Shown: piece after piece, positions 37,953 through 58,328 of the stretch | How positions within the stretch are numbered: the first letter of the stretch is position 1 | How the letters are laid out: each line of letters opens with the position of its first letter | Program-made: the position numbers and the translations under genes | The notes under the pieces: model-generated | Told to the model about the DNA's origin: nothing | The model's database searches: none | The model's input: the letters and a program-made list of their open reading frames with translations, nothing else | NCBI GenBank assembly: GCA_002753735.1 | Contig: PEAN01000002.1 | Location: 1-64,000 of the forward strand | Direction: 5' to 3' | Origin: Magnetococcales bacterium DCbin4 | GTDB lineage: Bacteria > Pseudomonadota > Magnetococcia > Magnetococcales > UBA8363 | Length of the DNA stretch: 64,000 nucleotides

Positions 37953-38283
37953 TTCATGCCTGCCCTGTGTGGGGAGATGTTTGTTCTGTCATGCGGCAGG
38001 GTGATGGGATCGGTGGTCGATGTCAGGAAAAACAAGAGGTTGCCGAGTCGCAGTGACAAGAGAATTATTGCGTGGAATTGGTGAAAAATGGGGAAATCCG
38101 GGAAAATTTGCACGTCTTTTGTCACTCTTTTGGTTGAAACTTGCGTGCGAATGATTGGTAAAAGCCAGTGGTGGTGCGGGATTGGTGGGATTTTCGGGGA
38201 GGGGGCCGGGGTCCGGTCGGGCTTGGATGATCGGATGATGTGTCCCAAATGAAAATTTTTGCATCCGATCCTGTTTGACTCGT
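37953..38283. other. Gene-free stretch with candidate phage-end sites
   Basis: No gene is supported here. A site at 38051-38073 (CAGTGACAAGAGAATTATTG onward) matches the repeated sites of the prophage right end at about 20 of 23 positions. An opposite-orientation, weaker match (TTTTGTCACT) lies at about 38117-38126. These may be transposase sites of the left end, so the chromosome-prophage border is probably in this stretch. Confidence 0.45.
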
Positions 38284-38615
38284 TCAAATTATAGATGATT
38301 GTTTGAGACAGGTTTTTGTCAGCGAGTTGCAACTGCGTACTTCGTCGGAACCGGCCTGACAGCTGATGGAATCACGCAGTCTTGACGACTCAGTGAGAAT
38401 CTTGTCGATCCGTTTGCGTTCTTTGGTGGCATTGCTCAAAGGAAGCCAGGGTTTACCCTGGGGGTCTTTCTGGGCGTCGAATCGGTCCTGGGTGACGGTG
38501 ATCAGGTATTCCCCGATGGCACGCATGGCCGGGGTCAGGTCATCGGCAGTCTGGGCAGATCGGTGAAAAGGTGATTGACGTGGGACAGATCAACGGTGAG
38601 GGTAATGCCCGCCAT
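38284..38615 (-). pseudogene. Mu gpG-like virion morphogenesis protein, frameshifted and truncated
   Basis: From ATG 38615 the frame reads M-A-G-I-T-L-T-V-D-L-S and stops after about 26 codons near 38537. The next frame then continues with T-P-A-M-R-A-I-G-E-Y-L-I-T-V-T-Q and F-D-A-Q-K-D-P-Q-G-K-P-W-L-P-L-S, the hallmark of phage virion morphogenesis (tail completion, Mu gpG) proteins. A one-base loss near 38540 explains the break. The similarity ends near Q-A-G-S-D-E-V, so the 3' third is missing, probably at a rearrangement breakpoint. The start overlaps the upstream stop (TGATG), as in a phage operon. Confidence 0.75.
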
Positions 38616-39315: not shown

Positions 39316-41090
39316 CCGTTCAGACTCCCCACCCCTTTGATGGGTACCAACCAAATTAAAGAGGTAGACAAATCACTTCTGAGTTGCGATAATTTGCACA
39401 TGTTGTCATTTTTCTGAAGCAGATTGGCTTCTTCCGATGCGACTGACTCCTCATGATTTGATGCAACTGGACAATGGCTATCTGGAGTCCCTCACCCCAG
39501 AGGCTTTGCGCAATGTCAGCAAGAAATTGCTCGCCGATCTCAAAGAGGCGGTTGACCGGTTGAACCAGAATTCTAACAACAGTTCCGTTCCCCCCAGCAG
39601 TAGACCATCCTATCTGGGGATCCCCTTTGGCGAAGGGTCGGATTCGACCCGGGATTCAGATGAAACCATCGGTGCCAAAGGCGAAGTGCCAAAGGCCGAT
39701 GCGAAGCAAAAAGAAGACAACCATGATTCGCCAAAAAACGTTTCAACGGGGGATGAGTCATCGTCATGTGATCAAAGTTCAAATCCGCGCCGGAAACCAG
39801 GAAAACAAGTTGGAGCGCCTGGATTCGGCATAAGTCAACGAATGACTGTCCATCGTATCGAAGAACACCGTCCCGTCAGCTGTTCGGCTTGTGACCAACC
39901 CCTACCGGGAGATACGCCGTTTGTAGTACACCTTGGTTTTCATGTCCTGGATCTTAAACGGGGAGATTCCACCCAGCCTGGCATGCAACTGATTTGTACG
40001 CTGCATAGATATGGAGAAGTCCAATGTCGCTGCGGGCATGTGACCAGAGTACAGCCTGGACAGGGAACCATCTACCAACCGGAAAACCGCAAATTGCCCA
40101 CGGCGCTCGGCGAGTGGCGATTGATCGGACCAACCTTGTCGTCTTTGATCGTTTGTTTGTCATTCCGGATGCGTCTGTCTCGTTCACGTATCCAGGAATT
40201 TCTTCAAGATTGGCTGAATCTGCGACTCAGCACCGGCACAATCCATAATTGTATTTCAGAGGCAGGGTTGGCGGCAGCTCCGATCGAGAAAGAGTTGATT
40301 GAGGAGGTTCGGAAGTCCGGGCTTCTTTTCGTTGATGAAACCCCATGGAAAGAATGGGGCAAGGTTCTCTGGTTGTGGGTCTTCGTGGCCGGTCCGGTGG
40401 TGCTGTTTTTGGTTGGACGCCGCACCCACCAGGTTCTCATGCAGGTGTTGGGTGACCTTTTCGCAGGCTGGCTGATGAGCGACGGACATGTAAACTACCG
40501 GGATTATCACAAACGTCTGCGTTGCCATGCCCATTTGATGCGCAACGCCACGGGATTGTATGAGAGCGTGGACAAAGAGGCGGCAGAATTTGGAAAAATT
40601 GCCATGTTTGCCCTCACCATGGCTTACAGGCAGGTCAAGGGCGAATTGACACCAACCAACCTGTGTCCAGTCATGCTTTCCAATTTCAAAGCGTTTTGCG
40701 AACTTCACAAAGACCATGTTCACGAAAAAACAAGGCAGTTGGCTGTTGAGTTTCTTCGCGACTGGGACGCCATCTGGCGAGTTCTGGATTCGCCGGAATT
40801 GCCGCTGACCAATAATGAGGCTGAACGCGCCTTACGCCACTGGGTGATCGCACGGCTGATCAGCCATGGAACACGCACACCCGAAGGGAGTCATACCTTG
40901 GGGGTATTGGCTAGCGTTATCGAAACCTGTCGGGTTCGGGGTATCTCGCCATGGCCATACTTGGCATCGGTCATTGCTGCAGGTCGCTGTGGGAAAGAAA
41001 TCTCCCCTTTACCCTTGCCGATGGTGGCTTGAATCAGAATCTGCCTGAAAGTCTGAACGATTGCCATCAGGTGGGGGGGAGTCTGAACGG
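39316..41090 (+). mobile_element. IS66-family (ISBst12-like) insertion sequence
   Basis: The ends are inverted copies of CCGTTCAGACTCCCC (39316 onward and up to 41090), flanked on both sides by GTAC. Removing the element with one GTAC restores an open frame across the site, so GTAC is the probable 4-base target duplication; because GTAC is palindromic it could instead belong to the terminal repeats. The element carries one transposase gene and no tnpA/tnpB genes, as in the ISBst12 group. No 8-base duplication typical of classical IS66 is present. Confidence 0.85.
39437..41032 (+). CDS. IS66-family transposase (TnpC, ISBst12-like)
   Basis: The 531-residue transposase has the IS66 plan: an N-terminal helical region with the N-S-S-V-P-P-S-S signature near residue 49, a linker rich in charged residues, a zinc-binding segment with C-x2-C pairs (C-S-A-C, C-R-C-G), and a DDE domain with D in L-F-V-D-E-T-P-W, D in M-S-D-G-H-V-N-Y, and E in L-T-N-N-E-A-E-R-A-L-R. 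It appears intact, so the element may still be active. Confidence 0.93.
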   Translation: MRLTPHDLMQLDNGYLESLTPEALRNVSKKLLADLKEAVDRLNQNSNNSSVPPSSRPSYLGIPFGEGSDSTRDSDETIGAKGEVPKADAKQKEDNHDSPKNVSTGDESSSCDQSSNPRRKPGKQVGAPGFGISQRMTVHRIEEHRPVSCSACDQPLPGDTPFVVHLGFHVLDLKRGDSTQPGMQLICTLHRYGEVQCRCGHVTRVQPGQGTIYQPENRKLPTALGEWRLIGPTLSSLIVCLSFRMRLSRSRIQEFLQDWLNLRLSTGTIHNCISEAGLAAAPIEKELIEEVRKSGLLFVDETPWKEWGKVLWLWVFVAGPVVLFLVGRRTHQVLMQVLGDLFAGWLMSDGHVNYRDYHKRLRCHAHLMRNATGLYESVDKEAAEFGKIAMFALTMAYRQVKGELTPTNLCPVMLSNFKAFCELHKDHVHEKTRQLAVEFLRDWDAIWRVLDSPELPLTNNEAERALRHWVIARLISHGTRTPEGSHTLGVLASVIETCRVRGISPWPYLASVIAAGRCGKEISPLPLPMVA

Positions 41091-43061: not shown

Positions 43062-43472
43062 ATGGATGTGAGACATTACCCCGTCATCGTTGAGCGAGGG
43101 GAAAACAATGCCGGAGAAGTTGGGTTTGGGAGTTTTTTCCCAGACTTGCCAGGATGTGTGTCTGGCGGAGATTCGTTGGACGAAGCGCTGCTCAATGCGG
43201 AGAAAGCGTTGGCGATGCATATTGGAGCCATGGTGAGAGATGGCGAAGATATTCCTGCCCCATCAATGTTGAGCGCAATTGGGCATGACCAGGAAGTCGA
43301 TGAGGTGTTGCGGGCTTTGGTGCGGGTGGATGTACCGGCAAAATGGGTAACGGTCAACGTTTCCATGGCAGAAACTCTATTGCAACGCATCGATGTGACT
43401 GCCCGGGAAATAGGCATGACAAGATCAGGCTTTCTTATGGAAGCGGCCAGGAGGATGGTGGAGCCGATCTAA
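43062..43472 (+). CDS. hicB: HicB-type antitoxin
   Basis: The 136-residue protein starts at ATG 43062 behind AGGAG. The N-terminal HicB fold shows G-F-G-S-F-F-P-D-L-P-G-C-V-S-G-G-D-S and D-E-A-L-L-N-A. The C-terminus has a ribbon-helix-helix-like segment (V-T-V-N-V-S-M-A-E-T-L-L-Q-R-I-D and T-R-S-G-F-L-M-E-A-A-R-R) for DNA binding. It neutralises HicA and represses the operon. It belongs to the prophage cargo beside the repressor. Confidence 0.9.
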   Translation: MDVRHYPVIVERGENNAGEVGFGSFFPDLPGCVSGGDSLDEALLNAEKALAMHIGAMVRDGEDIPAPSMLSAIGHDQEVDEVLRALVRVDVPAKWVTVNVSMAETLLQRIDVTAREIGMTRSGFLMEAARRMVEPI

Positions 43473-43904
43473 TCCTTCATGCAATGTCTAATGACCAACA
43501 GGCGTCCATCATATTTTTTAGATTGATAACGTGCCCATGGGCACGTTATCAATCAAATGAATACAAATCACACCCCTTTGCCCTTCACCCCATGATCACC
43601 ACGCAACGATAATATAGATACAAAACAATATCATATCAATAATTATCACCCCATCCATTCTCCTACATCATTCACGAAACGAATCCATAATTCCCCATTC
43701 CGCCGAAATATTAGGGCAACCGGGGACAAAATCCACCTGTTTGAGCCGGTTGTTTGGCTGCGGGTATTGGGGTGTTGATATTTCAATCGTGAATAACGTT
43801 CTCGTTGGACCCGATTGAAATCATGATCTTTGTGGAGTAGGATTCATGGGGGGATTGAATCGGTGATCAAGTGATGTTTGCAAAGAAAACCGGGAGATGG
43901 TCGC
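43473..43904. other. AT-rich gap with a perfect palindrome
   Basis: No gene is supported. Positions 43522-43536 and 43539-43553 form a perfect 15-base inverted repeat around a 2-base centre (ATTGATAACGTGCCC and complement). There is no T run after it, so it may be a protein-binding site or a 3'-end hairpin for hicAB. The rest is AT-rich, as expected for a promoter ahead of the next pair of genes. Confidence 0.55.
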
Positions 43905-44432
43905 ATGACAACGATTACGATGGACTTCAATGCCCTTTCGGGTCCGTGGCAGATCAGCCTTCCCGTCTTGAATATTTCGGATAAAACACTTTATTCCGAT
44001 CTTGTGTCGGAATTGTCCGACATCAGGGAAAGCCTGGCAAATCTTTCAGGTAAGGCCATTGAGTTTTCAGCCTTGTGCGATGATCTTGCCGGGAAAGCGG
44101 AACATGCGTTTGAGATGGGAGTGGCTGTTGATTTTGAACGACTTGCTGACATTGTTCAGCATAACGAGAAGAACACCCGGAAGATCAGCGAGCAGTTCAT
44201 GGATTCCATGGACAGGATGTCACGGCAGATTGCGAAAACCTTTCCTGAAATGCTCCCTGATTGTCAGGAAATCCGCCGCGGGATTGGGGAGGTTTATGAC
44301 AAACAAATCGCCGATCTCCGGGGGTTGAGATTCCGGCTGATGGCGTTGGCGGCGGAGGCGGAGGATGACGGTTCCGGAATGGTTCTCGAATCTCCGGAAG
44401 ATGTCAAACGCTTCTTTCTCAGCCTTGCATGA
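43905..44432 (+). CDS. Unknown helical protein coupled to a RelE-like toxin gene
   Basis: The 175-residue protein starts at ATG 43905 behind GGGAGATGG. It is soluble and mostly helical, with Y-S-D-L-V-S-E-L-S-D-I-R-E-S-L near residue 28 and Q-H-N-E-K-N-T-R-K-I-S-E-Q-F near 85. The family is not recognised. Its last bases overlap the toxin-like start (ATGA), so the two are translationally coupled. It occupies the antitoxin position but lacks a visible DNA-binding motif, and it is larger than common antitoxins. It could be an atypical antitoxin, or a phage protein that merely precedes the toxin gene. Confidence 0.65.
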   Translation: MTTITMDFNALSGPWQISLPVLNISDKTLYSDLVSELSDIRESLANLSGKAIEFSALCDDLAGKAEHAFEMGVAVDFERLADIVQHNEKNTRKISEQFMDSMDRMSRQIAKTFPEMLPDCQEIRRGIGEVYDKQIADLRGLRFRLMALAAEAEDDGSGMVLESPEDVKRFFLSLA

Positions 44433-44695
44433 AGACAAGACTCAGCGAGACACCCGGTTTCCGCCGTGACGTAAAAAAGATAAGCGCCGAAGTTCACAAA
44501 AGGCTGGAGAAATCGTTAAATCAATTTCTTCTGGACCGGAACCACCCGGGCTTGCACTTTGAAGTCATCAAGAAAAGTCGGAACCTTTACTCCATTCGGG
44601 TTGGAAGGAATCACCGGGTCATCATGAAGGAGGAAGCGCCAGACAGCTACATCCTTCTGCGCGTGGCCGTACATGATGTGTATCAAAGACTTTAA
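44429..44695 (+). CDS. RelE/ParE-superfamily toxin-like protein
   Basis: The 88-residue protein has the compact beta-alpha fold pattern of the RelE superfamily: an N-terminal helix pair (F-R-R-D-V-K-K-I-S-A-E-V-H-K-R-L), then the strands L-Y-S-I-R-V-G-R-N-H-R-V-I-M and the late Y-I-L-L-R-V-A-V-H-D-V-Y. The Arg-rich strand and terminal His-Asp resemble mRNA-interferase types. It starts within the stop of the 175-residue gene. No ribbon-helix-helix antitoxin is adjacent. Confidence 0.7.
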   Translation: MKTRLSETPGFRRDVKKISAEVHKRLEKSLNQFLLDRNHPGLHFEVIKKSRNLYSIRVGRNHRVIMKEEAPDSYILLRVAVHDVYQRL

Positions 44696-45783: not shown

Positions 45784-46523
45784 ATGCCAGCCTCAATGAC
45801 ACCAATTCCGCGATCAAAGGGGTCAAAGAGGCTGGAGCGACGCTGGAGCAACTGTACGAGAAGCAGGGGCAGACCGCCAAAAAGGCGCTGGATGAGCAGA
45901 CCAAAGGGACCGGCGCCCTGCAAAAATCATTGGCAGATGCCCAGAAAGAGGTCGCCAATTTCAAGGCCAAACTGGATTCCATTTCCGAACACACCGTCAA
46001 ACGGGTCGAACTGAAGGCCGATGTGGACCAGGCCAGGAGCGAGTTGAGCGAAATATCCCGGCAACTGAACGCCCTGCGGGACAAAACCATTACGGTCACG
46101 ACGCGCCACGTCGAGGCCAGATCCGCCGGCGGTCCCGTCGGTTTTGCCCGTGGTGGTACTGTGCCAGGGGGGTGGGGTGGTGGAGACAAGGTCAGGGCGT
46201 TGCTGGAGGCGGGAGAATATATCCTGCGCAAGGAGGCGGTCCGGCACTACGGGCTGGAATGGATCGAAGCCATGAACCAGATGCGATTGCCGTTGAACAT
46301 GCCACGGTTTGCGCAGGGCGGGATGGTTTCCGGTATCAGGATCCCGCAAATCCCCCGTGTCGCGTTCGCCCGGGGTGGTGCAGTCACAGCCGCGGCAACC
46401 GAGGTGATACGGCTGGATTTCTTCACAAACAACCATCGCGCCACATCCGTCACGGTTCCGCGGGATGAGGGCCTTGCGCTGGTTCGGACGCTGCAGGAAT
46501 GGCGGCGCGGGTTGGGATCATGA
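45784..46523 (+). pseudogene. Phage tail tape-measure protein, C-terminal fragment
   Basis: From the deletion junction the third frame encodes about 245 residues: coiled-coil sequence (G-A-L-Q-K-S-L-A-D-A-Q-K-E-V-A-N-F and later S-E-L-S-E-I-S-R-Q-L), then the Gly-rich end typical of tape-measure proteins (F-A-R-G-G-T-V-P-G, A-G-E-Y-I-L-R-K-E-A-V and F-A-Q-G-G-M-V). No start codon of its own is evident. The stop overlaps the next gene (ATGA), as it would in an intact tail operon. Confidence 0.75.
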
Positions 46524-46891
46524 AAAAACTAGGCGGGGTGGTGCTGCCCGACTCCATCAGGTGGGTGAACGAATATAGCTGGTCGCCGGTGGCCCACACC
46601 ACGACCCGCACCCTGGCCGGCAACCATCATGTCTGGGTTGCCGCGATGCACGGCGGGCGGCCCATCGATCTGGCCGCGGAACCCTCCTTCACCTGGCTCA
46701 CCCAATCCCAGGTGGATGCCATCATGGAGCTGGCCAATCAGCCGGGTGGGATTTTTGAGTTGGAAATCGATGACCGCCTGTTTCGGGTGATGTTCCGGCA
46801 TGATGATCCGCCCGCAACCTCGTTCTCGAAAATCCGTCATGCGAAGGCGTGTGAACTGTTTACCGGATCCATCAAACTGGTCCAAGTGTAA
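46520..46891 (+). CDS. Phage tail-module protein, unknown
   Basis: The 123-residue protein starts at ATG 46520, overlapping the tape-measure stop. It contains L-T-Q-S-Q-V-D-A-I-M-E-L and a beta-rich C-terminus (I-F-E-L-E-I-D-D-R-L-F-R-V-M-F-R-H). The position after the tape-measure gene suggests a distal-tail or tail-tip component. No family is recognised. Confidence 0.7.
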   Translation: MKKLGGVVLPDSIRWVNEYSWSPVAHTTTRTLAGNHHVWVAAMHGGRPIDLAAEPSFTWLTQSQVDAIMELANQPGGIFELEIDDRLFRVMFRHDDPPATSFSKIRHAKACELFTGSIKLVQV

Positions 46892-46916
46892 CCCAATCAA
46901 CTGAAAGCGAAAATCA

Positions 46917-47939
46917 ATGGCGATCACTCAGCCTGAACTGGTATTCTACAAACCGACGGCGATCAACAACACCGGCTCCAACGGTGGGCGCATGTACACC
47001 CAAGCCATCGCCTTGGCCGCGATGAACAATGTCTGGCCCAACGTTTCCCAGGCGGAACGGGCAGCCGGGCTGGTCACTTGGCGGAAAGTGTTTTTCAAGG
47101 TCGATAACGCCTCCAATCTGTCGTTGATCGGACCAAAAATCTGGGTCAGCAAACCGACGCCTGGAGATGATCGGGTGTTGATCTTCCCCGGAACCCAGAC
47201 CGACACCCAGGCGACCAAGATTGAAACACGGTTCTATGGCTGCGGGTTTTTGGACGCGAATGTTTCCGCTGGCGCGGGATCGGTGGATGTCAACGTGGAG
47301 GATCCCACCGACGTTATTTTCCAACCCGGCGATCTGGTGTGTATTTCGAACAAAACGAGCGTCAATGATCCCTCCGGGACCGTTCAATTCGTGACCGTGG
47401 ACACGGTATCCTGGAACGGGAACAAAGCCACGCTGACCTTCGCCATTGGTGAGGAGCTTTTGGACGGTTATACCACTGCCCAGGGAACCACCGTGGCGTC
47501 AGTCCACACCCCGGCGGACATTGCCACCTCCTGGGAGGCGTGGGGCGGATCGACGGTGGCCGGGACCTGGAATGGGACCTCCCCGGCAACCCCACCCACC
47601 ACCATCGTTCCGGTGCTGGACAACATTGGCACCATCTACCAAACCTGGACGCTGACGTTTACCGACGCCACCAACTTCACCTGCACCGGGGATACGGTGG
47701 GGGGTGTGGCGGGAGGGACCATCGGCAGCACGTTCGCGCCGAACAACCCCGCCTTTTCCCGGCCTTATTTCACTCTGCCCGTCACCGGTTGGGGCGGAAC
47801 GTGGGCGGCAACCGAGGTGTTGACCTTTCGCACAATCCCCGCTGCGGTGCCGATGTGGTGGAAACGGATCGTCCCGGCAGGCGCGGCCAGCACGGCGGCG
47901 GATGAGGTGGTCGTGAGTTTCAGTGGAGCCAGCGCATGA
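46917..47939 (+). CDS. Phage tail-module structural protein, unknown
   Basis: The 340-residue protein starts at ATG 46917. It is Thr/Gly/Trp-rich and predicted all-beta, with I-W-V-S-K-P-T-P-G-D-D near residue 78 and repeated G-T-W-N-G-T and G-W-G-G-T-W motifs in the second half. The plan fits a tail-tip or virion surface protein. Its stop overlaps the next start (ATGA). It has no recognisable family. Confidence 0.7.
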   Translation: MAITQPELVFYKPTAINNTGSNGGRMYTQAIALAAMNNVWPNVSQAERAAGLVTWRKVFFKVDNASNLSLIGPKIWVSKPTPGDDRVLIFPGTQTDTQATKIETRFYGCGFLDANVSAGAGSVDVNVEDPTDVIFQPGDLVCISNKTSVNDPSGTVQFVTVDTVSWNGNKATLTFAIGEELLDGYTTAQGTTVASVHTPADIATSWEAWGGSTVAGTWNGTSPATPPTTIVPVLDNIGTIYQTWTLTFTDATNFTCTGDTVGGVAGGTIGSTFAPNNPAFSRPYFTLPVTGWGGTWAATEVLTFRTIPAAVPMWWKRIVPAGAASTAADEVVVSFSGASA

Positions 47940-48094
47940 CCGTCGCCGCGACCAATCTTCTGCTGGATGTGACCCCGGCGGAAGCGGATGAGCCGTTTGA
48001 GTTGATCACCGAGGAATCCCTTCAGGAAGGGTCAACGCCGGTTGAGCTGGCGTATACCTCGGCCACTGTTTTTGTCGAGGATTTGCAAAAATGA
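47936..48094 (+). CDS. Very small phage protein (52 residues)
   Basis: The frame starts at ATG 47936 overlapping the preceding stop and ends at TGA 48094 overlapping the next start, so both junctions are ATGA couplings. It encodes an acidic peptide (A-E-A-D-E-P-F-E-L-I-T-E-E-S) with V-F-V-E-D-L-Q-K at the end. The couplings are the main evidence that it is real. Confidence 0.6.
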   Translation: MTVAATNLLLDVTPAEADEPFELITEESLQEGSTPVELAYTSATVFVEDLQK

Positions 48095-49185
48095 CAGGAG
48101 AAACGAGCACGTTTGTGACGTCGATGAGATTGACTCCAGACACTGTAAAGAAATATTGCAGAGGAGATTTTCGAGTCACGGAAGAAAACGATCCTGATGT
48201 CATAATCGGCAGGAGTTTGCGGGGAGTTACGTCGGGAACCCCATTAGAACAGGCGGATCGCGTATACAACTATTTGGCCGCATTTCATGGTGGCGCGAAC
48301 AGCCGAAACTTGAAGTCGTTCTGCCCCGCAATGTTCAAAGGGCCGCGCCCGGAAAATCCACCCCCGCCACCGCGACCAGCGGTAGTGCATTATGATCCGC
48401 CGCCGCCCAAGGTGGCCATTCCCGAACCACCCCCGGTCCCCAAACCGCCCCCGGAAACCAGGCAGGTCTATTCGAGCGTCCTGGATGTGGTGAAACCAGG
48501 GGTGCAGAGGGTTCGCCTCTATTGTTCCGAGGCTGTGGCGAAGACCGCCAACCTGACCGTCAGCAGCGATTGCACGGTTCGACTGATCGGGCGCAGGTAT
48601 GAGCCGGTGACGGAAACCATCCATTTCAACCGGTCAACCCGTGGACGGCTGCGGTATTTCTACGACCGACAGGAGCCGAAAATTGAACACAAATCGCAAT
48701 TTTGGCTGACCGACGGCCGGGAGGCGGACACTCCCGTATTTGACCGGCAGTCCGGTACTTTTGTCTCGATGAGCGAAGTCACGGGATCGATGATCGTGAC
48801 GTATTCGCCCGGATTCTCACTCTACGAGGTGACGTATCGTGTCGGCAAATCATTGGTGTCCGAGGAACATTTCAACCGCATGCGTGACGCATGGTTGAAG
48901 GGGGACATCAATACCGTTCCCATTGTCCCCGTCAGGGTGTACGCCCAGTCGAAATGGCACGCCACCCAGGCGTCATTCCAGCGTAAATTTTGGCCGACCG
49001 GGACGGCTCAACTGAGCTTCAACAAGGGTTCCCAATACACCGAGCAACCAGGGACCCGCGTTTCGGAGACGGTCCGGGTTTACAGTGCGACGGATCCAAC
49101 CGTGTTTATCGATATTCAACGGGACAAATATGTTGAGATGAAAAACAGTGTGACCGGCGAGCCGTTCATCATGAGGCTGTACTGA
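48091..49185 (+). CDS. Phage tail-module protein with Pro-rich hinge
   Basis: The 364-residue protein starts at ATG 48091 with a 4-base overlap. Residues about 85-130 are a Pro-rich hinge (P-P-P-P-P-R-P and P-P-P-K), separating a small N-terminal domain from a beta-rich C-terminal part (V-T-Y-R-V-G-K-S-L-V-S-E-E-H-F near residue 250). It is probably a tail or baseplate component; the family is unknown. Confidence 0.68.
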   Translation: MTGETSTFVTSMRLTPDTVKKYCRGDFRVTEENDPDVIIGRSLRGVTSGTPLEQADRVYNYLAAFHGGANSRNLKSFCPAMFKGPRPENPPPPPRPAVVHYDPPPPKVAIPEPPPVPKPPPETRQVYSSVLDVVKPGVQRVRLYCSEAVAKTANLTVSSDCTVRLIGRRYEPVTETIHFNRSTRGRLRYFYDRQEPKIEHKSQFWLTDGREADTPVFDRQSGTFVSMSEVTGSMIVTYSPGFSLYEVTYRVGKSLVSEEHFNRMRDAWLKGDINTVPIVPVRVYAQSKWHATQASFQRKFWPTGTAQLSFNKGSQYTEQPGTRVSETVRVYSATDPTVFIDIQRDKYVEMKNSVTGEPFIMRLY

Positions 49186-50048
49186 TGGCCATGACAATCA
49201 ATCTCGGCCCGTTCGCCCGCATCGTCGGACATAATTTGGGCGGCAAGCGGATGGACAAGATCGCCACAGTGACCCTCGAAAACAATTTCATGACGAGGAT
49301 GGCCTTTGGTGACGGCGGAAACAAATTATACGCCGTCATCTCAAAACCAGTTTCCGGCCTGCGCATTCAGGAATACACGCTGTCCACCCCCTGGATGATC
49401 GAATCCATGACGCTCACGAAAGAGGTTGTAACCAGTGGTTTTTTCATTGCTGGAGACAGAGTATTCATTCCTTCGCCGGGGAACACCGCGTTCCTTTTCG
49501 AATATTACCGGTCCAGGGTGGTTGTATATTCTCTTTCTGTCCCGTGGGATTTGACTTCCATCCCCCCAGACTGGACATCTTCTACGGAATTCACACTTCC
49601 GGGGGTAAACGGTTATGCCTGCATGAGTTCCGATGGATTGAGGTTATTGACCTACCTTGGGGGGTTTAACGCAGGACATGCGCGCTACGGTATCCAACAA
49701 ACCATCCTTCGCGCCCCTTGGGACTTCAGTTATCTTTCCTGGCATGGATGGAGTTACACGTTTCAATCCTTGCCTGGATTCTCGGCGATTGCCTTCAGTC
49801 CCGATGGCGCTTCCCTGTTTGGACTGGAAGAAAAGGATGACCGCGTGATCGTTCACCGATATTCCCTGCTCCCTTGGGGTTCAACGGACCCTTGGAGATT
49901 GTTGGATGCGATCAAATTGGTTGGCAGCTACGAGGTTTCTCCCGTGCGCGGTTCCCCGGTGGGATTGCTGGTTTCCGACGATGGCCGATACGTCTACGCC
50001 TTCGTGACATTCGCCGAAACGTCAACCATCACCCAATTCAAGGTGTAG
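49185..50048 (+). CDS. Phage protein with beta-propeller-like repeats
   Basis: The 287-residue protein overlaps the previous stop by one base (TGATG). Strand-turn motifs recur (G-D-G-G-N-K-L-Y-A-V, S-S-D-G-L-R-L-L-T-Y, S-P-D-G-A-S-L-F-G-L, S-D-D-G-R-Y-V-Y-A-F), each D-G-x-x-L/Y type, spaced 60-80 residues apart as in a beta-propeller. It may be a receptor-binding or tail-surface protein. No close family is recognised. Confidence 0.65.
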   Translation: MAMTINLGPFARIVGHNLGGKRMDKIATVTLENNFMTRMAFGDGGNKLYAVISKPVSGLRIQEYTLSTPWMIESMTLTKEVVTSGFFIAGDRVFIPSPGNTAFLFEYYRSRVVVYSLSVPWDLTSIPPDWTSSTEFTLPGVNGYACMSSDGLRLLTYLGGFNAGHARYGIQQTILRAPWDFSYLSWHGWSYTFQSLPGFSAIAFSPDGASLFGLEEKDDRVIVHRYSLLPWGSTDPWRLLDAIKLVGSYEVSPVRGSPVGLLVSDDGRYVYAFVTFAETSTITQFKV

Positions 50049-50053
50049 GCCGT

Positions 50054-51673
50054 ATGGGTTACCCAGAGATCATCATTGCCGATGCGCCAACCTACTACTG
50101 GCGGCTGAGCGAGGCATCGGGAAATCCGGTTTCGAGCATGGGTACGGCAACTCTGGGCGTGAGCGGCACTTGGACGCGTCAGGTTGAGGGTGCGATTATT
50201 TCAGATTCCGCCACCAATTATGCCATGAGCGCGGCAACAACAACTGGACTGTGTTATCTGACCCGCAATAGCGTCAGTCTCAATTGGGCAAAATTTTCGT
50301 ACGAATTGTGGTTTATCCAACCATCAGCAAATGCTGGCAGCGATCTGTTCCTGTTCAATCATAGTACCGGTCCGCAGCTCAAATGCAGACACGGCGGATC
50401 TGACCGTTTAACGTTTGTCCTCAGCAGCATCGTATTGCAGAGCAGTACCTCCCATCAGTTGGATGTTTGGAATCATGCTGTTGTCACGGCTGGGTCCGGA
50501 GTTGTCAAAATTTACCTGAACGGACAACTCGTCGGATCAGGAGCCTTGGATACAGCGGGCAATACATCACCATCGCTGGCGTGGGGTACCAGCCCCTCGG
50601 GGACGGGAATATTGTATGGCTCTCTGGACGAGCTTGCATACTACTACAATAAAGCGCTGACCACCGACCAGATTTCCGAGCATTATCTGGCCGGAAGACC
50701 GCCGGTTCCGGTTTCCGGCAGTATTTCAGCAGCATGGAATATCCAGCTTGAATGTACAGCAAGGGCATCCTATTCGCTGGCGGCGACCATCCCTGCCCGG
50801 GAATTGACCGCCAGCCATTGCCTGGAAGCAGGGCAAGCCCTGTCGGCCCCGTTTGCGGTAACGGTCGGTCGGGAGATTTCCGCCCCCAGCGACATCACCG
50901 TGGAACATGAAATCGCCTCTTCCCGCGCGCTTCTGGTCGGTCAGGCGATCATTGCGACCTATGCGGTGGGTATCGAGCAGGTCCAGCAGGTGTTGTCAGC
51001 GCCGTATTCAGTGATCGTCGAGCAATCACTGGTTGCGCCCTGTTCGACAATCGTTGGTCGATCCCTGACCGCTCCCTATTCGGTGGCCGCAACCCGGGCA
51101 ACACAATCCCTGGCGGCGCCGTATCGTGTAACGGTCGAATCGGTCCTGGCGGCACCCTATTCAGTGGGCGCAACCGTCGTCAGTCGAGACCTGGCGGCTC
51201 GATATGACGTCACCATCGAACAGGAGGTATCCGCATCCTATCGGGTCCTGGTTGAACGGGCACTGGAATCCGCCTGCTCCCTCAGTGTCGGCGCCAGCGT
51301 GCATGCACGCTATTCGGCGGCGGATTTTATTGATCGTGACCTCGCAGGGGCATGGTCCATTGATGTCGGGTCGGCGATCACAGCCGGATTCGAGGTGCCG
51401 GTGTGCGCCGAATTACGCAGCCTGTACGGGTGGGGTGTGAGCGGTTCGATTCTGGCCAGGTGGGAATCGCAACAGGTTGTCTCACAACAGATTGTTGCGC
51501 CTTATGTGTCGGTTGTCGAGGGTGTGGCCGCAGAGCTGAGGGCCAGATACGGCCTGCTCGAATACAATCCCGTCGCCAACGAACTGACCGCGTATTGGAG
51601 CCTGTTGAGCGGTTTGGAATCGCAGACCCGCGTGGCCGAGTTCAGCGTGGTCTATAAGGGCGTTTCGCTATGA
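50054..51673 (+). CDS. Phage LamG-domain protein with a long 12-residue tandem repeat
   Basis: The 539-residue protein starts at ATG 50054 just after the propeller-like gene. Residues about 10-210 are a concanavalin/LamG-like jelly roll (Y-P-E-I-I-I-A-D-A-P-T-Y-Y-W-R-L-S-E-A-S-G, N-H-A-V-V-T-A and L-D-E-L-A-Y-Y). After a short linker, residues about 220-520 are built from some 20 units of about 12 residues with the consensus L-x-A-P-Y-S-V-x-V-E-x-x, a few expanded to 14-15. The alternating hydrophobic pattern suggests a beta-solenoid or beta-prism stalk. It is likely a tail-tip or spike protein. The stop overlaps the next start. Confidence 0.75.
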   Translation: MGYPEIIIADAPTYYWRLSEASGNPVSSMGTATLGVSGTWTRQVEGAIISDSATNYAMSAATTTGLCYLTRNSVSLNWAKFSYELWFIQPSANAGSDLFLFNHSTGPQLKCRHGGSDRLTFVLSSIVLQSSTSHQLDVWNHAVVTAGSGVVKIYLNGQLVGSGALDTAGNTSPSLAWGTSPSGTGILYGSLDELAYYYNKALTTDQISEHYLAGRPPVPVSGSISAAWNIQLECTARASYSLAATIPARELTASHCLEAGQALSAPFAVTVGREISAPSDITVEHEIASSRALLVGQAIIATYAVGIEQVQQVLSAPYSVIVEQSLVAPCSTIVGRSLTAPYSVAATRATQSLAAPYRVTVESVLAAPYSVGATVVSRDLAARYDVTIEQEVSASYRVLVERALESACSLSVGASVHARYSAADFIDRDLAGAWSIDVGSAITAGFEVPVCAELRSLYGWGVSGSILARWESQQVVSQQIVAPYVSVVEGVAAELRARYGLLEYNPVANELTAYWSLLSGLESQTRVAEFSVVYKGVSL

Positions 51674-53049
51674 GCGTCGTGGCCATCAACATCGGGATCT
51701 CCGAGGGGGGCTACGCCTGGACCGGAACCGTGACCCTGGATGATCTGGCCGATTTTCAAAGGGTCACCATTGGCGATCCGATCACGGTCACCATTGGCGG
51801 GGAGGTGTTCAGCCTGATGGTGGACAGCAAAACGCTGTCCCGCGATGGCGTCAATGCGCCTGTCATGTCCCTGTCGGTCATCAGCCCGACCGCCCTGCTC
51901 GATGCGCCGTTTGCCCGGTCCGTCGATTTGACGATGCCAGTGGATACGACGGCAAGGGCGGTCGCGGAATCGGCTGTCGGTGCTGCAATCCTGTGGGATT
52001 TGGTGGATTGGATGATTCCGGCAAGTCTTCTTTCGTTTTATGCCGCGACCCCATTGTCCATCGCTCGGGCCATCGCAACATCCGCCGGAGGTATGGTGGA
52101 GACCATGCCGAACGGGGCGTTGCGGGTCCGGCACCGTTTCCCGGTCCCGGTGCCCGATTGGGAATTAACAAACATCCCCGACCATCACGTACTCACCGAT
52201 GTTATTGATAATCTGTCATGCATGGAGACCTATTCCGTCCCCGAGCTGGTGGACCGGGTCGTTGTCCGATCCTCCGAGATGAAAGAGGCGCTCCTGTCCA
52301 TGGAAGTTGACGGCAGACCGAGCGGGCTGAACGGCGGCATCACGGCGTTCAAGGGAGGGATGACCGCCTATTTCCTGGTCCATGCCGATACGGAAAAAAT
52401 CAGGGAGGTCACCGTCGATCCATCCGTCGGCAATGTTGTCGAGGCGTCGGCGCAGAACTATCTGGCCACACAACTCGTTCATTTCGATTCGACCAGGCGC
52501 ACCGTTGCGCTGGAAACCCCAACCTCCAATATCGTCAAGGTCGTATGGTACGGCAACAGCCTGGGTAAGCTGATCCTCGGGAAGGATGGAAAAACCGTCA
52601 CTTCCGAATTGCCCGGGACGGGGATTGCCCAGGTCCATTATACGGTGCAAAGTTTCGCGTTCGGGGTGCAACTGCCGAAAACAGTCGGAGATGCGGATCG
52701 TTACCCGGTTAACGTCGCACTGACGGGCCGCGTGACGGATACCTCTGAACTGGTCTGTCAACGTGGGGAGGGCGATCATCCAGGAGAAGATGTCGTCGAT
52801 CCGTTCCTGACCACCCTTGATGCACGCCTGTCACGCGGCAGGGCCATCATCGACCAGGGATCGGGATTGCGGGAGGTCAGCCTGACCTGTGTCCACCGCC
52901 CGGGGATCATGCCGGGGGATCTGGTCAAGATCCACGATGCCATGATGGGCCGCTCCTGGGTCGGGAAGGTCACCGGAGTCAGGCACGACGTGCGGTTTTC
53001 GGTGATGACCACCAGTCTGGAGGTTGCCCGTGGCCAATCCCGTCCTTGA
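51670..53049 (+). CDS. Probable phage tail hub or baseplate-type protein
   Basis: The 459-residue protein starts at ATG 51670 with ATGA overlap. The N-terminal part is beta-rich (V-T-L-D-D-L-A-D-F-Q-R-V-T-I-G-D-P-I); the C-terminal part ends in R-P-G-I-M-P-G-D-L-V-K-I and G-K-V-T-G-V-R-H, phrases common in tail-hub proteins that bind small beta-domain partners. It is followed, with overlap, by a small gene (53030) whose product could be such a partner. The assignment is by analogy. Confidence 0.6.
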   Translation: MSVVAINIGISEGGYAWTGTVTLDDLADFQRVTIGDPITVTIGGEVFSLMVDSKTLSRDGVNAPVMSLSVISPTALLDAPFARSVDLTMPVDTTARAVAESAVGAAILWDLVDWMIPASLLSFYAATPLSIARAIATSAGGMVETMPNGALRVRHRFPVPVPDWELTNIPDHHVLTDVIDNLSCMETYSVPELVDRVVVRSSEMKEALLSMEVDGRPSGLNGGITAFKGGMTAYFLVHADTEKIREVTVDPSVGNVVEASAQNYLATQLVHFDSTRRTVALETPTSNIVKVVWYGNSLGKLILGKDGKTVTSELPGTGIAQVHYTVQSFAFGVQLPKTVGDADRYPVNVALTGRVTDTSELVCQRGEGDHPGEDVVDPFLTTLDARLSRGRAIIDQGSGLREVSLTCVHRPGIMPGDLVKIHDAMMGRSWVGKVTGVRHDVRFSVMTTSLEVARGQSRP

Positions 53050-53257
53050 GCTGCGGCATTTGCTCTCTTCGACCCGGACCGAAACAGGGAAGGTCCTTGA
53101 ATTGACATCCAAGACAACCGCCCTGATCGCCACCTCAAGCGGCAGTCGCGAACTGCCCTACGAGGGCACCCTGGCCATCGGTGACATCGTTATGATCAAA
53201 AACGGACGGGCCGCAAAACGGCGCATGTCCGAAACCGCACCCGTTTATTTTGTATGA
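53030..53257 (+). CDS. Small phage protein of the tail hub region
   Basis: The 75-residue protein starts at GTG 53030, chosen because GGAGG lies 6 bases upstream inside the previous gene. It is a compact beta-rich protein (V-L-E-L-T-S-K-T-T-A-L-I-A-T and I-G-D-I-V-M-I-K-N-G-R) of OB-like or SH3-like character, overlapping the preceding gene by 20 bases. Confidence 0.72.
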   Translation: MANPVLELRHLLSSTRTETGKVLELTSKTTALIATSSGSRELPYEGTLAIGDIVMIKNGRAAKRRMSETAPVYFV

Positions 53258-53290
53258 CGAGACCGTACAACCCATTGAACGGAGGATGAG

Positions 53291-53572: not shown

Positions 53573-55309
53573 ATGCCATATCAAATCAATCCAATTACGG
53601 GCGCCATGGACCTTGTCGGTGGCGCTCAAGGTTCCCAAGGGATTCAAGGTCCACCCGGACCTGCCGGTGCCGATGGTGCCCAAGGCCCGCAGGGTCCCCA
53701 GGGGATTCAAGGTATTCCTGGAGCCGATGGTGCCCAAGGCCCGCAGGGGATTCAGGGACCTCCCGGACCCGCCGGGGCTGACGGTGCCACGGGACCGCAG
53801 GGGATTCAGGGATCTCCCGGACCCGCCGGCGCCGATGGAGCCCAAGGCCCGCAGGGGATTCAGGGCCCACCCGGACCCGCCGGCGCCCAGGGTCCCCAAG
53901 GAGTTGCAGGCCAGGCGATCCTTCATCGCGATGCCTGGGATTCCGGGACCGCCTACATCCCGGGTGATGGCGTGACCCATGGCGGGTCGAGCTATTTTTG
54001 CAAGGTGGGACACACCAACCAGGAGCCGCCCAATGCCACGTATTGGGGTTTGTTGGCGGCAAAGGGTGATCCCGGCGCCCCAGGTGCCGGCGGGGTGTCC
54101 GGGATGGTTCCCGGTGGACTGCTGATCGGGGCTGCCGATGGGAGCGCGACACAGGACGCCGCGCTGTCCTGGGATAACACGTACAAGCGTTTGGGGATTG
54201 GGACCAACACGCCATCCAATGTGGTGTCCGTGAGGATGGCCGCACCGGCTATCGTCGATATTACTTCTATAGCCACTCTAACCCAAACAAACGCGCATTC
54301 ATCTGCCGTACCAACATTGGCGAATATGACGGACGGCGCAATATCCACGGATCAAGGGACGTGGATTACCGATGGGACCGTCGAGTTGGCGTTTCCCTAT
54401 AGCGTAACAATGACGAGGCTCGCGTTTTACAGCGGGACGTTTCCCGTAAAAAACGCGTTGGTGCAGGCATGGAACGGTTCTACGTGGGTAACGCCCCTGC
54501 TGTCGAGTACAATAAACTGTACTTGGAACGGATCTAGTCTGGAGTGTAACAATCTGACGGGATGGATAACGTGCAATTTCAGTGAAATTGCAACGACGAA
54601 GATCAAATTAAGCTTAAATTCACCCTATTGGGCAGGAGCACAGAACAACATTCGCGAACTCAAAGTAGAAGGCTATGCGGGTTTTGACTCCCTTGCCCTA
54701 GACGTGACGAATACAAGTAAAATTGGCTTGGGTACCTCAAACCCTCAAGCCAAGTTAGACATAGGGAACCCTCTCGACACCCTTTCGTTGCGTGTGTACC
54801 GCGCAGGATCCACCCCGACCGATGCGATTGCGACCTTTCACTCCAACATCGGCGGGGTCGGGACCAAGGTTTGCGAAATCCGCAATACCGGCGGCGTTTA
54901 CAATATCGGGACGGTGTTTGGTGGGTTATCCGATGAAAGGTTCAAGGAAAACATCACGGACAGCACTCAAAAACTGGAGGAGCTGCGCGCGGTCCGGGTA
55001 CGGAAATTCAACTTCATCGGCCACCCGGAATTTCCCCAGATCGGGATGATCGCTCAGGAATTGGAAGACATTTTCCCCGGCCTGGTCACCGAAACCGAGG
55101 ATACCGAAACCATTCCCGATCCCGACTGGATTCCTGGCGCAGGCCAGACCGAAACAGATCGACCCTTCATCACCCGTCACCCGGGAACGGTGACCAAGTC
55201 GATCAAATATTCCGTATTCGTCCCGATTTTGATCAAAGCACTCCAGGAACTCGCCGCCAAGAATGACGCCTTGGAGACCCGAGTGGCGGCGCTGGAGGCA
55301 AGACAATAA
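53573..55309 (+). CDS. Collagen-like tail fibre with C-terminal S74 intramolecular chaperone
   Basis: The 578-residue protein has a short N-terminal head (residues 1-18). About 90 residues of Gly-X-Y triplets ([13 protein letters not shown]) follow, expected to form a collagen-type triple helix. A short chitin-binding-like segment ([15 protein letters not shown]) is next, then a discoidin/F5-8C-like domain near 225-370. The S74 auto-cleaving chaperone comes last: [10 protein letters not shown] near 455, with [16 protein letters not shown]74 domains trimerise fibres and self-release at the Ser of the S-D-x-R-x-K motif. This is the probable host-recognition fibre. Confidence 0.88.
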
Positions 55310-55571
55310 GACAGTTGAAGTTTTTCTGGTTACGAACCTCTTGACCAAAAAAATATCTCAAAGACCGCAACAGAAAACATATTACAGTTCGGGAGATAGG
55401 ATATGAAGAAAGGCACCCCCCTTTGTACAGCAGGCATTTTGGCTGGCTTGATTCAGGATCGGCTCCAAAAGAATACGGTCTGCCGGAACGGGTTGATATT
55501 CCTCTGCCAAGGAGGCTTCGTGCAAAAAGCAAGGCTCCTCCTTGGCGCTTTCATTCTTCCAGAGGGAACCA
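55310..55571. other. Gap between tail fibre and SIR2-like gene
   Basis: A short open frame from ATG 55403 (90 codons, with GGGAGATAGGAT ahead) exists but its 3' third overlaps the convergent SIR2-like gene and it matches no family; I leave it as doubtful. A 9-base inverted repeat (CCAAGGAGG and CCTCCTTGG, about 55507-55545) with a long loop lies here and may help end transcripts of the convergent genes. Confidence 0.4.
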
Positions 55572-56654
55572 TTATTCTTGCGGGGGCGAAGGAATCAGCG
55601 CCCACAGGTCCTTTTCTCCAAACTTTTCCGGATAATGGAATACCCTCTTCGGGAATAGGTTGTTCAGGTTTGTAAAGTGGGAATCTTTCGGAAAGTCAGG
55701 ACAGACTGCATGAATCTCAAGTTCTGGATGCAGGTTCATGCTGGTCTCGATTAACGAGTTGATGTATTCGTCACGGTAGGCAAAGCCAACCGAGATCAAC
55801 CGCTTATGGTGCGCAAGCTGGTTAAAGAAGTGCCGGTGCAATTCCGTAAACGGGTGCTGCACCGGAATTCCTTTGTACCCCGGATAAATCAGCGCCGGGC
55901 CGTCCATGTCTTCTGGCAAACGCGGTGCACCTGTAACGCAAACCCCTTTGTAAAAATCCCAAGTCAGAGAGCCGTGAAGTTTGAAATATACGATTTCATG
56001 CTCATTGGGTCGGCCAGTCTCCAGGTTATGGGCGAAGACAAGGCTGGAGCCGCGAGGCTCAAAACCATTGAATATTTTCTTGATTCCAAGATCTTCCCAG
56101 TATTCATGCAACCCGGAATCTTGACGGACATCCTCGAAAACACCTTCCAAAACAAGATCATAATTGGTGGTGAAAACTGCCAGCCTGCCTTGTTTTCTTA
56201 TAACGTCGGAAAAAAATGCGGTAAACAGGTCAAACGCCTTTTCATGATCATGTTTCAGGCTTTTCCAAAGATATCGTTTTAATTCTTTGTCCAGCCCAAC
56301 CGCAACTCCATTGAGTTCGGTCAGGAAAATTCTCGCCTGGTTGGCCAGCGATGCCTTGCTGTTCAGCGTACTCTTGCTGGTCTGGTCGGAAGTTGCTTGG
56401 GAAGCCACGCCCCATGATTCTACAAAAGATTTCGCTGTAGCGGATAAATCTTCATAAGATCGGATCATATTTCCCAGAGTGAAGAAGAGATGCTCAATAT
56501 CAAGATCCTCTGGACTGCCATTGGCCAGACGCTTCAACAATGATTCATACAACATCCGAGCATCCGCGGACGGGGTAAACCCGGTCATGAACCCCCGCGT
56601 TGTGGACAAACCAAGGGGCGCACAAGCCCCGGCACCAATAAGAAATAGATCCAT
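55572..56654 (-). CDS. SIR2-like (NADase-type) protein, candidate anti-phage defence cargo
   Basis: The 360-residue protein starts at ATG 56654 behind AGAGGT. It has the SIR2-like core: L-I-G-A-G-A at residues 5-10, T-T-N-Y-D at 162-166 with the catalytic Asn, L-H-G-S at 226-229 with the catalytic His, and G-F-A-Y-R-D-E-Y-I-N at 290-299. Proteins of this type occur in several defence systems (for example Thoeris, DSR-type and SIR2-pAgo), where they deplete NAD+ on infection. It is transcribed against the phage tail genes, between the tail fibre and the Rha gene, the usual site for accessory cargo. Base composition appears lower in GC than the tail genes. The partner, if any, is not obvious. 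The defence role is inferred. Confidence 0.82.
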   Translation of the reverse strand: MDLFLIGAGACAPLGLSTTRGFMTGFTPSADARMLYESLLKRLANGSPEDLDIEHLFFTLGNMIRSYEDLSATAKSFVESWGVASQATSDQTSKSTLNSKASLANQARIFLTELNGVAVGLDKELKRYLWKSLKHDHEKAFDLFTAFFSDVIRKQGRLAVFTTNYDLVLEGVFEDVRQDSGLHEYWEDLGIKKIFNGFEPRGSSLVFAHNLETGRPNEHEIVYFKLHGSLTWDFYKGVCVTGAPRLPEDMDGPALIYPGYKGIPVQHPFTELHRHFFNQLAHHKRLISVGFAYRDEYINSLIETSMNLHPELEIHAVCPDFPKDSHFTNLNNLFPKRVFHYPEKFGEKDLWALIPSPPQE

Positions 56655-56871
56655 ACGGTAAACCTCTTTATTATGTTGATTGGAAATGAATCATTCTTAC
56701 CATAACACATATCACAAAAAAGACTGGCCAGGAACCGCTTGACAATCCTCCTGTCATCGAATACATTGCCTCCCACGGGGTTTAGCGACCCTACCAAGAG
56801 CGGAATGCGCACCCGACAGACTTGCGCCTTTTTTGTGTCCAGAATTCGGCATGGTCTCCCATGGTCGCTCT

Positions 56872-56956
56872 CTGGCCGGGTGTTCCAGGGCATACGATAC
56901 CCGTAAGGGAAAACCCTGGAGCCGTACTTTTGGGCGGTCGCTAAACACCCGGCCAG
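56872..56956 (+). ncRNA. Structured RNA-like leader upstream of the second Rha gene
   Basis: Positions 56872-56884 and 56944-56956 form a perfect 13-base stem enclosing about 60 bases. Inside are a second stem (56885-56890 with 56914-56919, capped by a CCC/GGG mini-stem) and a possible third stem (near 56922-56937). The result is a compact three-way-junction shape, ending 31 bases before the ATG. An 11-base stretch at 56780-56790 is the exact complement of 56936-56946, allowing an alternative pairing. It could be a 5'-UTR switch, an antisense-type RNA or a phage regulatory RNA. No named RNA family is recognised. Confidence 0.5.
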
Positions 56957-56987: not shown

Positions 56988-57566
56988 ATGCAGAACCTCA
57001 TTGTCCCCATTCATTTGGAAATTTCCAACGGTCGCCCCACAGCCCGGTCCACCGATGTGGCCGAACATTTCGAAAAGCGGCACGACAACGTGTTGAGGAA
57101 TATTCGCGGACTTGAAATTCCCGACGAATGGCGTCTCCTCAATTTTGAGGAGACGTATATCCAGGTCAAGACTCCCAACGGTGGTACACGCATGGATCCT
57201 GCAATCGACATGACCCGTGATGGTTTCACCGTGTTGGTCATGGGCTGGACCGGAGCCAAGGCGATGCAGTTCAAAATCGCCTATCTGGAGGCATTCAACC
57301 GCATGGAAGCGGAGTTGCAGACCCGGGCCGGGACATTGCCGACCCACCGTCACATCAAGCTGTTGGAGCGGCTGGCGGAATTGGAGGCATTCCGTGCCGA
57401 AACCTTGGCGCAACGTTTGGAGAACCGCCCCCATCGGAGTCCGCGCCCTTTGACTCCGGAGGAGCGGACGCGCATGACGGCGATGCACCAGCAAGGTTTT
57501 TCCCTCTACCGCATCGCCCGCGAAACCGGCCGCCACACCAAAACCGTCGCCCGTGCGATTCGATAA
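56988..57566 (+). CDS. Rha-family phage regulatory protein with C-terminal helix-turn-helix
   Basis: The 192-residue protein starts at ATG 56988 behind AAAGGAG. The N-terminus is Rha-type (A-R-S-T-D-V-A-E-H-F-E-K-R-H-D-N-V-L and T-R-D-G-F-T-V-L-V-M-G-W-T-G-A-K-A). The C-terminal tail (M-H-Q-Q-G-F-S-L-Y-R-I-A-R-E-T-G-R-H) is a resolvase/Hin-like helix-turn-helix. It is a diverged second copy of the Rha gene at 41.5-42.1 kb. Rha proteins block lysogeny-incompatible phages or act as antirepressors. The folded leader upstream suggests control at RNA level. Confidence 0.85.
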   Translation: MQNLIVPIHLEISNGRPTARSTDVAEHFEKRHDNVLRNIRGLEIPDEWRLLNFEETYIQVKTPNGGTRMDPAIDMTRDGFTVLVMGWTGAKAMQFKIAYLEAFNRMEAELQTRAGTLPTHRHIKLLERLAELEAFRAETLAQRLENRPHRSPRPLTPEERTRMTAMHQQGFSLYRIARETGRHTKTVARAIR

Positions 57567-57905: not shown

Positions 57906-57943
57906 AAAAAAACCGCCATGGGATTTTCCAAGGCGGTTTTTTT
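57906..57943 (+). terminator. Strong intrinsic terminator closing the Rha operon
   Basis: A7CCGCC (57906-57917) pairs perfectly with GGCGGT7 (57932-57943) around a 14-base loop, giving a 12-base stem with a T7 tail; because of the A tract it can also work on the other strand. Confidence 0.85.
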
Positions 57944-58167
57944 GTTGCCCGGCCCAAAACCGGCCATGGCGAAAACTCAAAATTCAGTGACAAGAGAGTC
58001 CGCGATCAGTGACAAGAAAATTATCGCGTTACACCAAGGCGGTTTTTTTGTTGCCCGGCCCAAAACCGGCCATGGCGAAAACTCAAAATTCAGTGACAAG
58101 AGAGTCCGCGATCAGTGACAAGAAAATTATCGCGTTACATCAGTGACAAGAAAATTATCGCGTTACA
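57928..58167. repeat. 106-bp tandem duplication with repeated phage-end sites (prophage right end)
   Basis: Units 57928-58033 and 58034-58139 are essentially identical, followed by a partial third copy (58140-58167). Each unit contains a half-like site (CAGTGACAAGAGAGTCCGCG) and a full site of 28 bases (58006-58033, 58112-58139, 58140-58167) ending in CGCGTTACA. Sites of about 22 bases repeated in the same sense and ending in CA are what MuA-type transposases bind at phage ends. The host border is placed right after 58167. The duplicate also copies part of the terminator, CCAAGGCGGT7. Confidence 0.75.
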
Positions 58168-58252: not shown

Positions 58253-58328
58253 TGGTGAGCCGTGTTGGAGTCGAACCAACGACCCACAGATTAAAAGTCT
58301 GTTGCTCTACCGACTGAGCTAACGGCCC
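58253..58328 (-). tRNA. tRNA-Lys (TTT anticodon)
   Basis: On the minus strand the cloverleaf is complete: acceptor GGGCCGT/ACGGCTC (one G-U), D arm with AGCTCAGTCGGTAGAGC, anticodon stem ACAGA/TCTGT with loop CTTTTAA giving TTT, T arm GTTGG-TTCGACT-CCAAC, and encoded CCA. Confidence 0.95.

Follow-up and report, generated by a model that had tools for sequence, protein, structure and literature searches.

A SIR2-family protein carried as accessory cargo by Magnetococcales prophages and encoded without an adjoining HerA gene

The SIR2 gene and its prophage surroundings

The window analyzed here is a stretch of 64,000 nucleotides of the Magnetococcales bacterium DCbin4 genome (contig PEAN01000002.1, positions 1 to 64,000). 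It contains an intact open reading frame of 360 codons, from ATG to stop (55572 to 56654, minus strand), for a compact, single-domain SIR2_2 protein, a predicted NADase according to Pfam, PADLOC, phmmer, AlphaFold2, and Foldseek. A Shine-Dalgarno-like AAAGAGG lies 8 nt 5' of the start codon (56663 to 56669, minus strand). A pattern scan placed a terminator-like hairpin with a T-run past the stop codon (55524 to 55544, minus strand), which suggests a single-gene transcript; the count of such hairpins was not above that in shuffled sequences, and a larger alternative hairpin also folds at these positions. The only Pfam domain within the 360 residues is SIR2_2 (PF13289; E value of 6.6e-9; 36.4 bits against a cut-off of 24.5), whereas the NCBIfam SIR2 antiphage model matched weakly, far under its cut-off. 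PADLOC assigned SIR2 and Aga_SIR2 profiles, of which Aga_SIR2 scored best (66 bits, SIR2 domain only). A phmmer search of the PDB matched the SIR2 proteins 8yhx, 8w9l, and 8j4u, with alignment of both TTNYD (residues 162 to 166) and LHGS (residues 226 to 229). The catalytic residues Asn164 of TTNYD (codon at 56163 to 56165, minus strand) and His227 of KLHGS (codon at 55974 to 55976, minus strand) are aligned with those of the solved proteins and are invariant across the 23 aligned relatives. The first-pass annotation, made from the sequence of the window, had thus correctly read this as a one-domain protein that keeps the SIR2 catalytic motifs, and neither the Asn nor the His is lost among the relatives. 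Its view that the composition is unlike that of the tail genes also holds: the SIR2 gene has a GC content of 48.3% (52.6% at third codon positions), compared with 55.7 to 60.5% (61.5 to 74.5%) in the tail genes.

The gene is convergent with a tail fiber gene encoding collagen repeats and a Peptidase_S74 domain (53573 to 55309, plus strand; domain matches). Upstream of this lies a tail module (46089 to 53260, plus strand), which begins with a truncated tape measure and is collinear with a prophage of Magnetococcales bacterium DCbin2, as determined with tblastx and PHROGs. The DNA homology with that prophage extends to 55539, which is slightly beyond the SIR2 stop codon. The truncated tape measure is 308 amino acids long and is preceded by about 2.5 kb with toxin-antitoxin genes. 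These genes (43062 to 44695) include a HicB-like antitoxin gene and a ParE-like toxin gene (44429 to 44695), and they occupy the place where head genes would be expected; an IS transposase gene (39437 to 41032, plus strand; PHROG transposase) lies close to the left part of the remnant. Searches of the window prophage matched no gene for a head protein, terminase, portal, or integrase. A tRNA-Lys gene (58253 to 58328, minus strand; ARAGORN) borders the remnant, and the homologous DCbin2 stretch also ends at tRNA-Lys.

The prophage had initially been described as Mu-like, which these data do not support. The collinear partner of its tail module is a prophage of the tyrosine-integrase, HK97-head type, and the sole Mu-type feature seen is a fragment of Phage_tail_S (38284 to 38526, minus strand), about 17 kb from the SIR2 gene. 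The Mu transposase (PF02914) gave no match in a search run without a positive control. The window prophage is therefore a decayed, tRNA-Lys-adjacent, integrase-type remnant that is not demonstrably Mu-like. Repeats of GTGACAAGAAAATTATCGCG occur at 57928 to 58167, as part of a perfect tandem duplication of 106 bp next to tRNA-Lys, and a degenerate copy lies at 38053 to 38072. Another copy is found on contig C89 of the same genome (16485 to 16504), beside tRNA-Thr and adjoining a nearly identical tail fiber end. We did not take these repeats as Mu ends, because they are direct repeats and occur next to a tRNA gene on C89 as well; they may be the terminal repeats of this prophage family or repeats used in recombination.

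On its other side, the SIR2 gene faces a divergent gene for a Rha-family phage regulator with a C-terminal helix-turn-helix (56988 to 57566, plus strand; PF09669, 5.8e-27). This gene is preceded by a structured leader, sRNA-Xcc1 (RF02221; 56874 to 56962, plus strand; 58.4 bits, cut-off 53), ending 25 nt upstream of the Rha start, and both features lie outside the SIR2 unit. The SIR2 gene is thus antisense between the tail fiber and Rha genes, as first described; the description of this Rha as a second one was not borne out, as a single Rha gene was identified among the genes tested. Originally described as a Xanthomonas small RNA, sRNA-Xcc1 is present in 29 of the 48 Magnetococcales genomes in up to six copies. 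In 10 of the 29 loci read (the window and L054-L079 among them), it ends 22 to 27 nt before an open reading frame, and the frames behind it differ and are mostly unrelated to Rha. The element is best read as a cis leader of phage or mobile genes. Both features had been put forward, as speculation, as partners of the SIR2 protein. Neither lies beside the DCbin2 SIR2 gene, and they are therefore not conserved partners. A 14-nt segment (56777 to 56790) is complementary to positions 56936 to 56949 on the 3' side of sRNA-Xcc1; this pairing overlaps the closing stem of the element (56872 to 56884 with 56944 to 56956) and could represent an RNA switch before Rha. A promoter-like site (TTGACA/TACATT, at 56739) lies just upstream of the segment.

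Fold class and comparison with known SIR2 systems

The AlphaFold2 model of the SIR2 protein (pLDDT, 75.7; pTM, 0.73) is of middling quality, with residues 199 to 204 and 242 to 266 at a pLDDT of <50. In a Foldseek search of the PDB, all 28 matches with an E value of ≤0.001 were SIR2 chains of SIR2-HerA (Nezha) complexes, with TM scores of about 0.5, and sirtuin deacetylases appeared from an E value of 0.024 onward. A search of BFVD returned no significant match. Deacetylation requires a zinc module (PMC12700824), which is lacking here, since the protein contains just three scattered cysteines (C11, C239, and C318). These results support placing the protein in the antiphage SIR2-HerA-like branch, apart from the deacetylases. 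The structure prediction and family search proposed in the first-pass annotation thus returned SIR2-HerA subunits as the top fold matches, and they agree with its suggestion that the kin of this protein are antiphage SIR2s and not housekeeping enzymes.

The SIR2 subunit of SIR2-HerA (Nezha, GAO_19) is the best relative in both fold and sequence (8uae, 8suw, 8w9l, 8j4u, and 8yhx) and shares the SIR2_2 active site and its Asn and His residues. In the Vibrio cholerae Nezha system, N168A and H227A each abolish immunity, and deletion of herA results in significantly higher phage plaquing, indicating that HerA is needed for defense (PMC11559045). The SIR2 proteins of this system are typically about 390 to 450 amino acids long, whereas the window protein has 360 and lacks the N-terminal extension and longer C terminus of most HerA-linked relatives. 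In SIR2-HerA, in which a SIR2 dodecamer sits on a HerA hexamer, the HerA gene moreover adjoins the SIR2 gene, unlike in the window and DCbin2. Because this defining partner was looked for and not found, the protein is not a member of the system; it is SIR2-HerA-like as an enzyme, yet outside SIR2-HerA proper.

Other systems share less with the window protein. The short pAgo-associated SIR2 of SPARSA, represented by the best PADLOC profile, comes with APAZ and Argonaute, whereas the window gene has no APAZ and no adjoining Argonaute gene, its neighbors being the tail fiber and Rha genes. DSR1 and DSR2 follow a similar single-gene SIR2 effector logic, and DSR2 senses a phage tail protein; however, they are far larger proteins with a C-terminal sensor, a region missing here, where the SIR2 domain ends near the C terminus. 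No DSR structure was among the Foldseek matches shown. Thoeris ThsA is likewise a SIR2-type NADase, but the window protein has neither a SLOG/macro domain nor ThsB, and no TIR gene was found among the tested neighbors. Tha and Tai are also accessory genes on prophages or related elements and protect the host cell; their effectors differ, and the SIR2 gene described here is a candidate defense gene.

Distribution, cargo behavior, and missing HerA

An orthologue that is 61% identical over its whole length is present in Magnetococcales bacterium DCbin2. These are the only two genomes with a copy, as no further one was found in the 48 genomes of the order (E value of 1e-10) or in about 400 genomes of the phylum (E value of 1e-15); both are drafts, with completeness values of 95.9% (DCbin4) and 78% (DCbin2). 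An IMG/VR locus (L019) matches the DCbin2 DNA at 99.97% and was not counted as an independent occurrence for this reason. Between the two genes, codon positions 1, 2, and 3 differ at 112, 79, and 205 sites, respectively, and 115 of the 218 identical residues are encoded by differing codons. This codon-position pattern and synonymous codon use reflect selection on the protein. Judging from the coding sequences, protein-level constraint has been strong since the two copies split, and the window gene is intact though the surrounding prophage has decayed.

The DCbin2 prophage is fuller and encodes a tyrosine integrase, a terminase, a portal, a major head/protease protein, a major tail protein, and a 1,605-amino-acid tape measure. 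Its SIR2 gene lies elsewhere, antisense between genes for a 611-amino-acid late-region protein and a neck-type protein, at the junction of the head and tail modules. The longer tail-module matches between the two prophages show 38 to 50% protein identity (tblastx), and the SIR2 protein (61%) is thus better conserved than the collinear tail proteins. Contig C89 of the DCbin4 genome carries a second prophage end, in which a tail fiber 3' end that is 98.4% identical to that of the window is followed within about 150 bases by the GTGACAAGAAAATTATCGCG repeat and then by tRNA-Thr, with no SIR2, sRNA-Xcc1, or Rha gene. This end is a natural empty site for the SIR2 gene. C89 has two tail-fiber-like segments at its ends (98.4% and 76 to 89% identical to parts of the window fiber), for which a sister prophage and exchange of fiber segments are possible readings. 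Given the different place in DCbin2, the divergent tails, and the absence on C89, the SIR2 gene is mobile accessory cargo, as had been proposed from its position.

A single-sequence query with the SIR2 protein gave no match in viral contigs, phages, or genome contigs, so that the search for more distant relatives relied on a two-row alignment. A HerA profile built from four SIR2-linked HerA proteins identified the gene immediately following SIR2 as HerA in 26 of the 28 viral contigs whose DNA could be read past SIR2, as well as in 5 of 6 plasmid loci and 6 of 6 genome loci (37 of 40 readable relatives). The relatives without it are L012, L027, and L045. A transposase gene lies immediately behind SIR2 in L045, which was set aside as a further HerA-less orphan because the transposase may have removed HerA. 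The survey of neighbors suggested earlier thus uncovered a conserved partner in the distant relatives that does not extend to the two Magnetococcales loci: HerA is absent beside both genes and on the examined stretches of both prophages and of C89. Searches of the DCbin4 genome likewise yielded no SIR2-type HerA. A 1,755-amino-acid protein of this genome (C140, 24266 to 29530; L100, 267 to 5531) has a C-terminal DUF87/TraG-like P-loop; it was rejected as a SIR2-type HerA, with DUF87 matching over 51 positions only and TrwB/TraG scoring about equally, and is possibly part of another defense or transfer system. The match in DCbin2 is a NifH-like protein and was likewise discarded. In the tree, the two Magnetococcales proteins share a long branch that falls outside the HerA-linked groups; L027 joins them, which may be a long-branch artifact.

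Candidate role in prophage-borne defense

The reading that we favor, and hold to be somewhat probable, is that the gene encodes a HerA-independent SIR2 NADase, carried as independently transcribed prophage cargo, that protects lysogens through NAD+ depletion and abortive infection. As a cargo gene (moron) of Magnetococcales prophages, it would be expressed from its own transcript in the lysogen, and the protein would be kept inactive. An incoming phage would provide the trigger; by analogy, this may be a protein with a structural or DNA-processing role, or else a shift in oligomeric state. NAD+ would then be hydrolyzed at the Asn164/His227 site and the infected cell would stop, with the prophage and sister cells being protected. 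No neighboring HerA ATPase would be used, unlike in the nearest relatives; oligomerization and/or sensing would then have to be provided by the extended helical stretch that separates the first strand from the TTNYD loop (approximately residues 53 to 155). A bolder version, which we advance only tentatively, is that of a minimal one-protein immune NADase that combines sensing and killing in about 360 residues, dispenses with HerA, Argonaute, SLOG, and a large sensor domain, and spreads among the prophages of magnetotactic bacteria.

Because solved relatives need HerA, a SIR2 protein without it could be inactive or need a partner in trans. The protein could be one component of a two-part SIR2-HerA system, with HerA or a different P-loop ATPase encoded elsewhere in the genome or supplied by the infecting phage, as the nearest folds, the HerA linkage of 37 of 40 distant relatives, and the partial DUF87 match in the 1,755-amino-acid frame might suggest. 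We regard this as unlikely: neither the DCbin4 genome nor the examined prophage stretches hold a HerA of SIR2-type size, the DUF87 match is short and rivaled by TrwB/TraG, the DCbin2 match is NifH-like, and the SIR2 lineage is long-branched outside the HerA-linked clades. A decaying or inert relic that lost its HerA would fit the missing gene and the degraded state of the window prophage, but it is a doubtful explanation given the strong protein-level constraint, the retention of all invariant residues, and the full-length second copy in the fuller DCbin2 prophage.

A prophage cargo gene need not be a defense gene, and the protein might alter the host otherwise, through NAD-dependent ADP-ribosyl transfer, signaling, or an addiction or toxin function without immunity. 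SIR2 folds also catalyze further NAD reactions, and independently transcribed single-gene cargo would suit such a role; nevertheless, it seems improbable, as the nearest fold relatives are antiphage NADases and no partner antitoxin is common to the window and DCbin2 loci. The chance that the gene encodes a housekeeping CobB-type sirtuin deacetylase is very slight. The general SIR2 fold and the weak sirtuin matches are what such an enzyme would give, but deacetylase structures rank at an E value of 0.024 or worse, the zinc-binding Cys4 module is absent, Pfam reports SIR2_2 only, and the distribution is that of cargo.

Our search of the literature yielded no publication addressing prophage defense in Magnetococcales, for which this SIR2 gene represents an additional prophage-borne candidate. 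SIR2-HerA is thought to be activated through assembly on HerA. A HerA-less lineage with a selected active site would allow the need for HerA to be tested directly, and it bears on how small an autonomous SIR2 immune unit can be.
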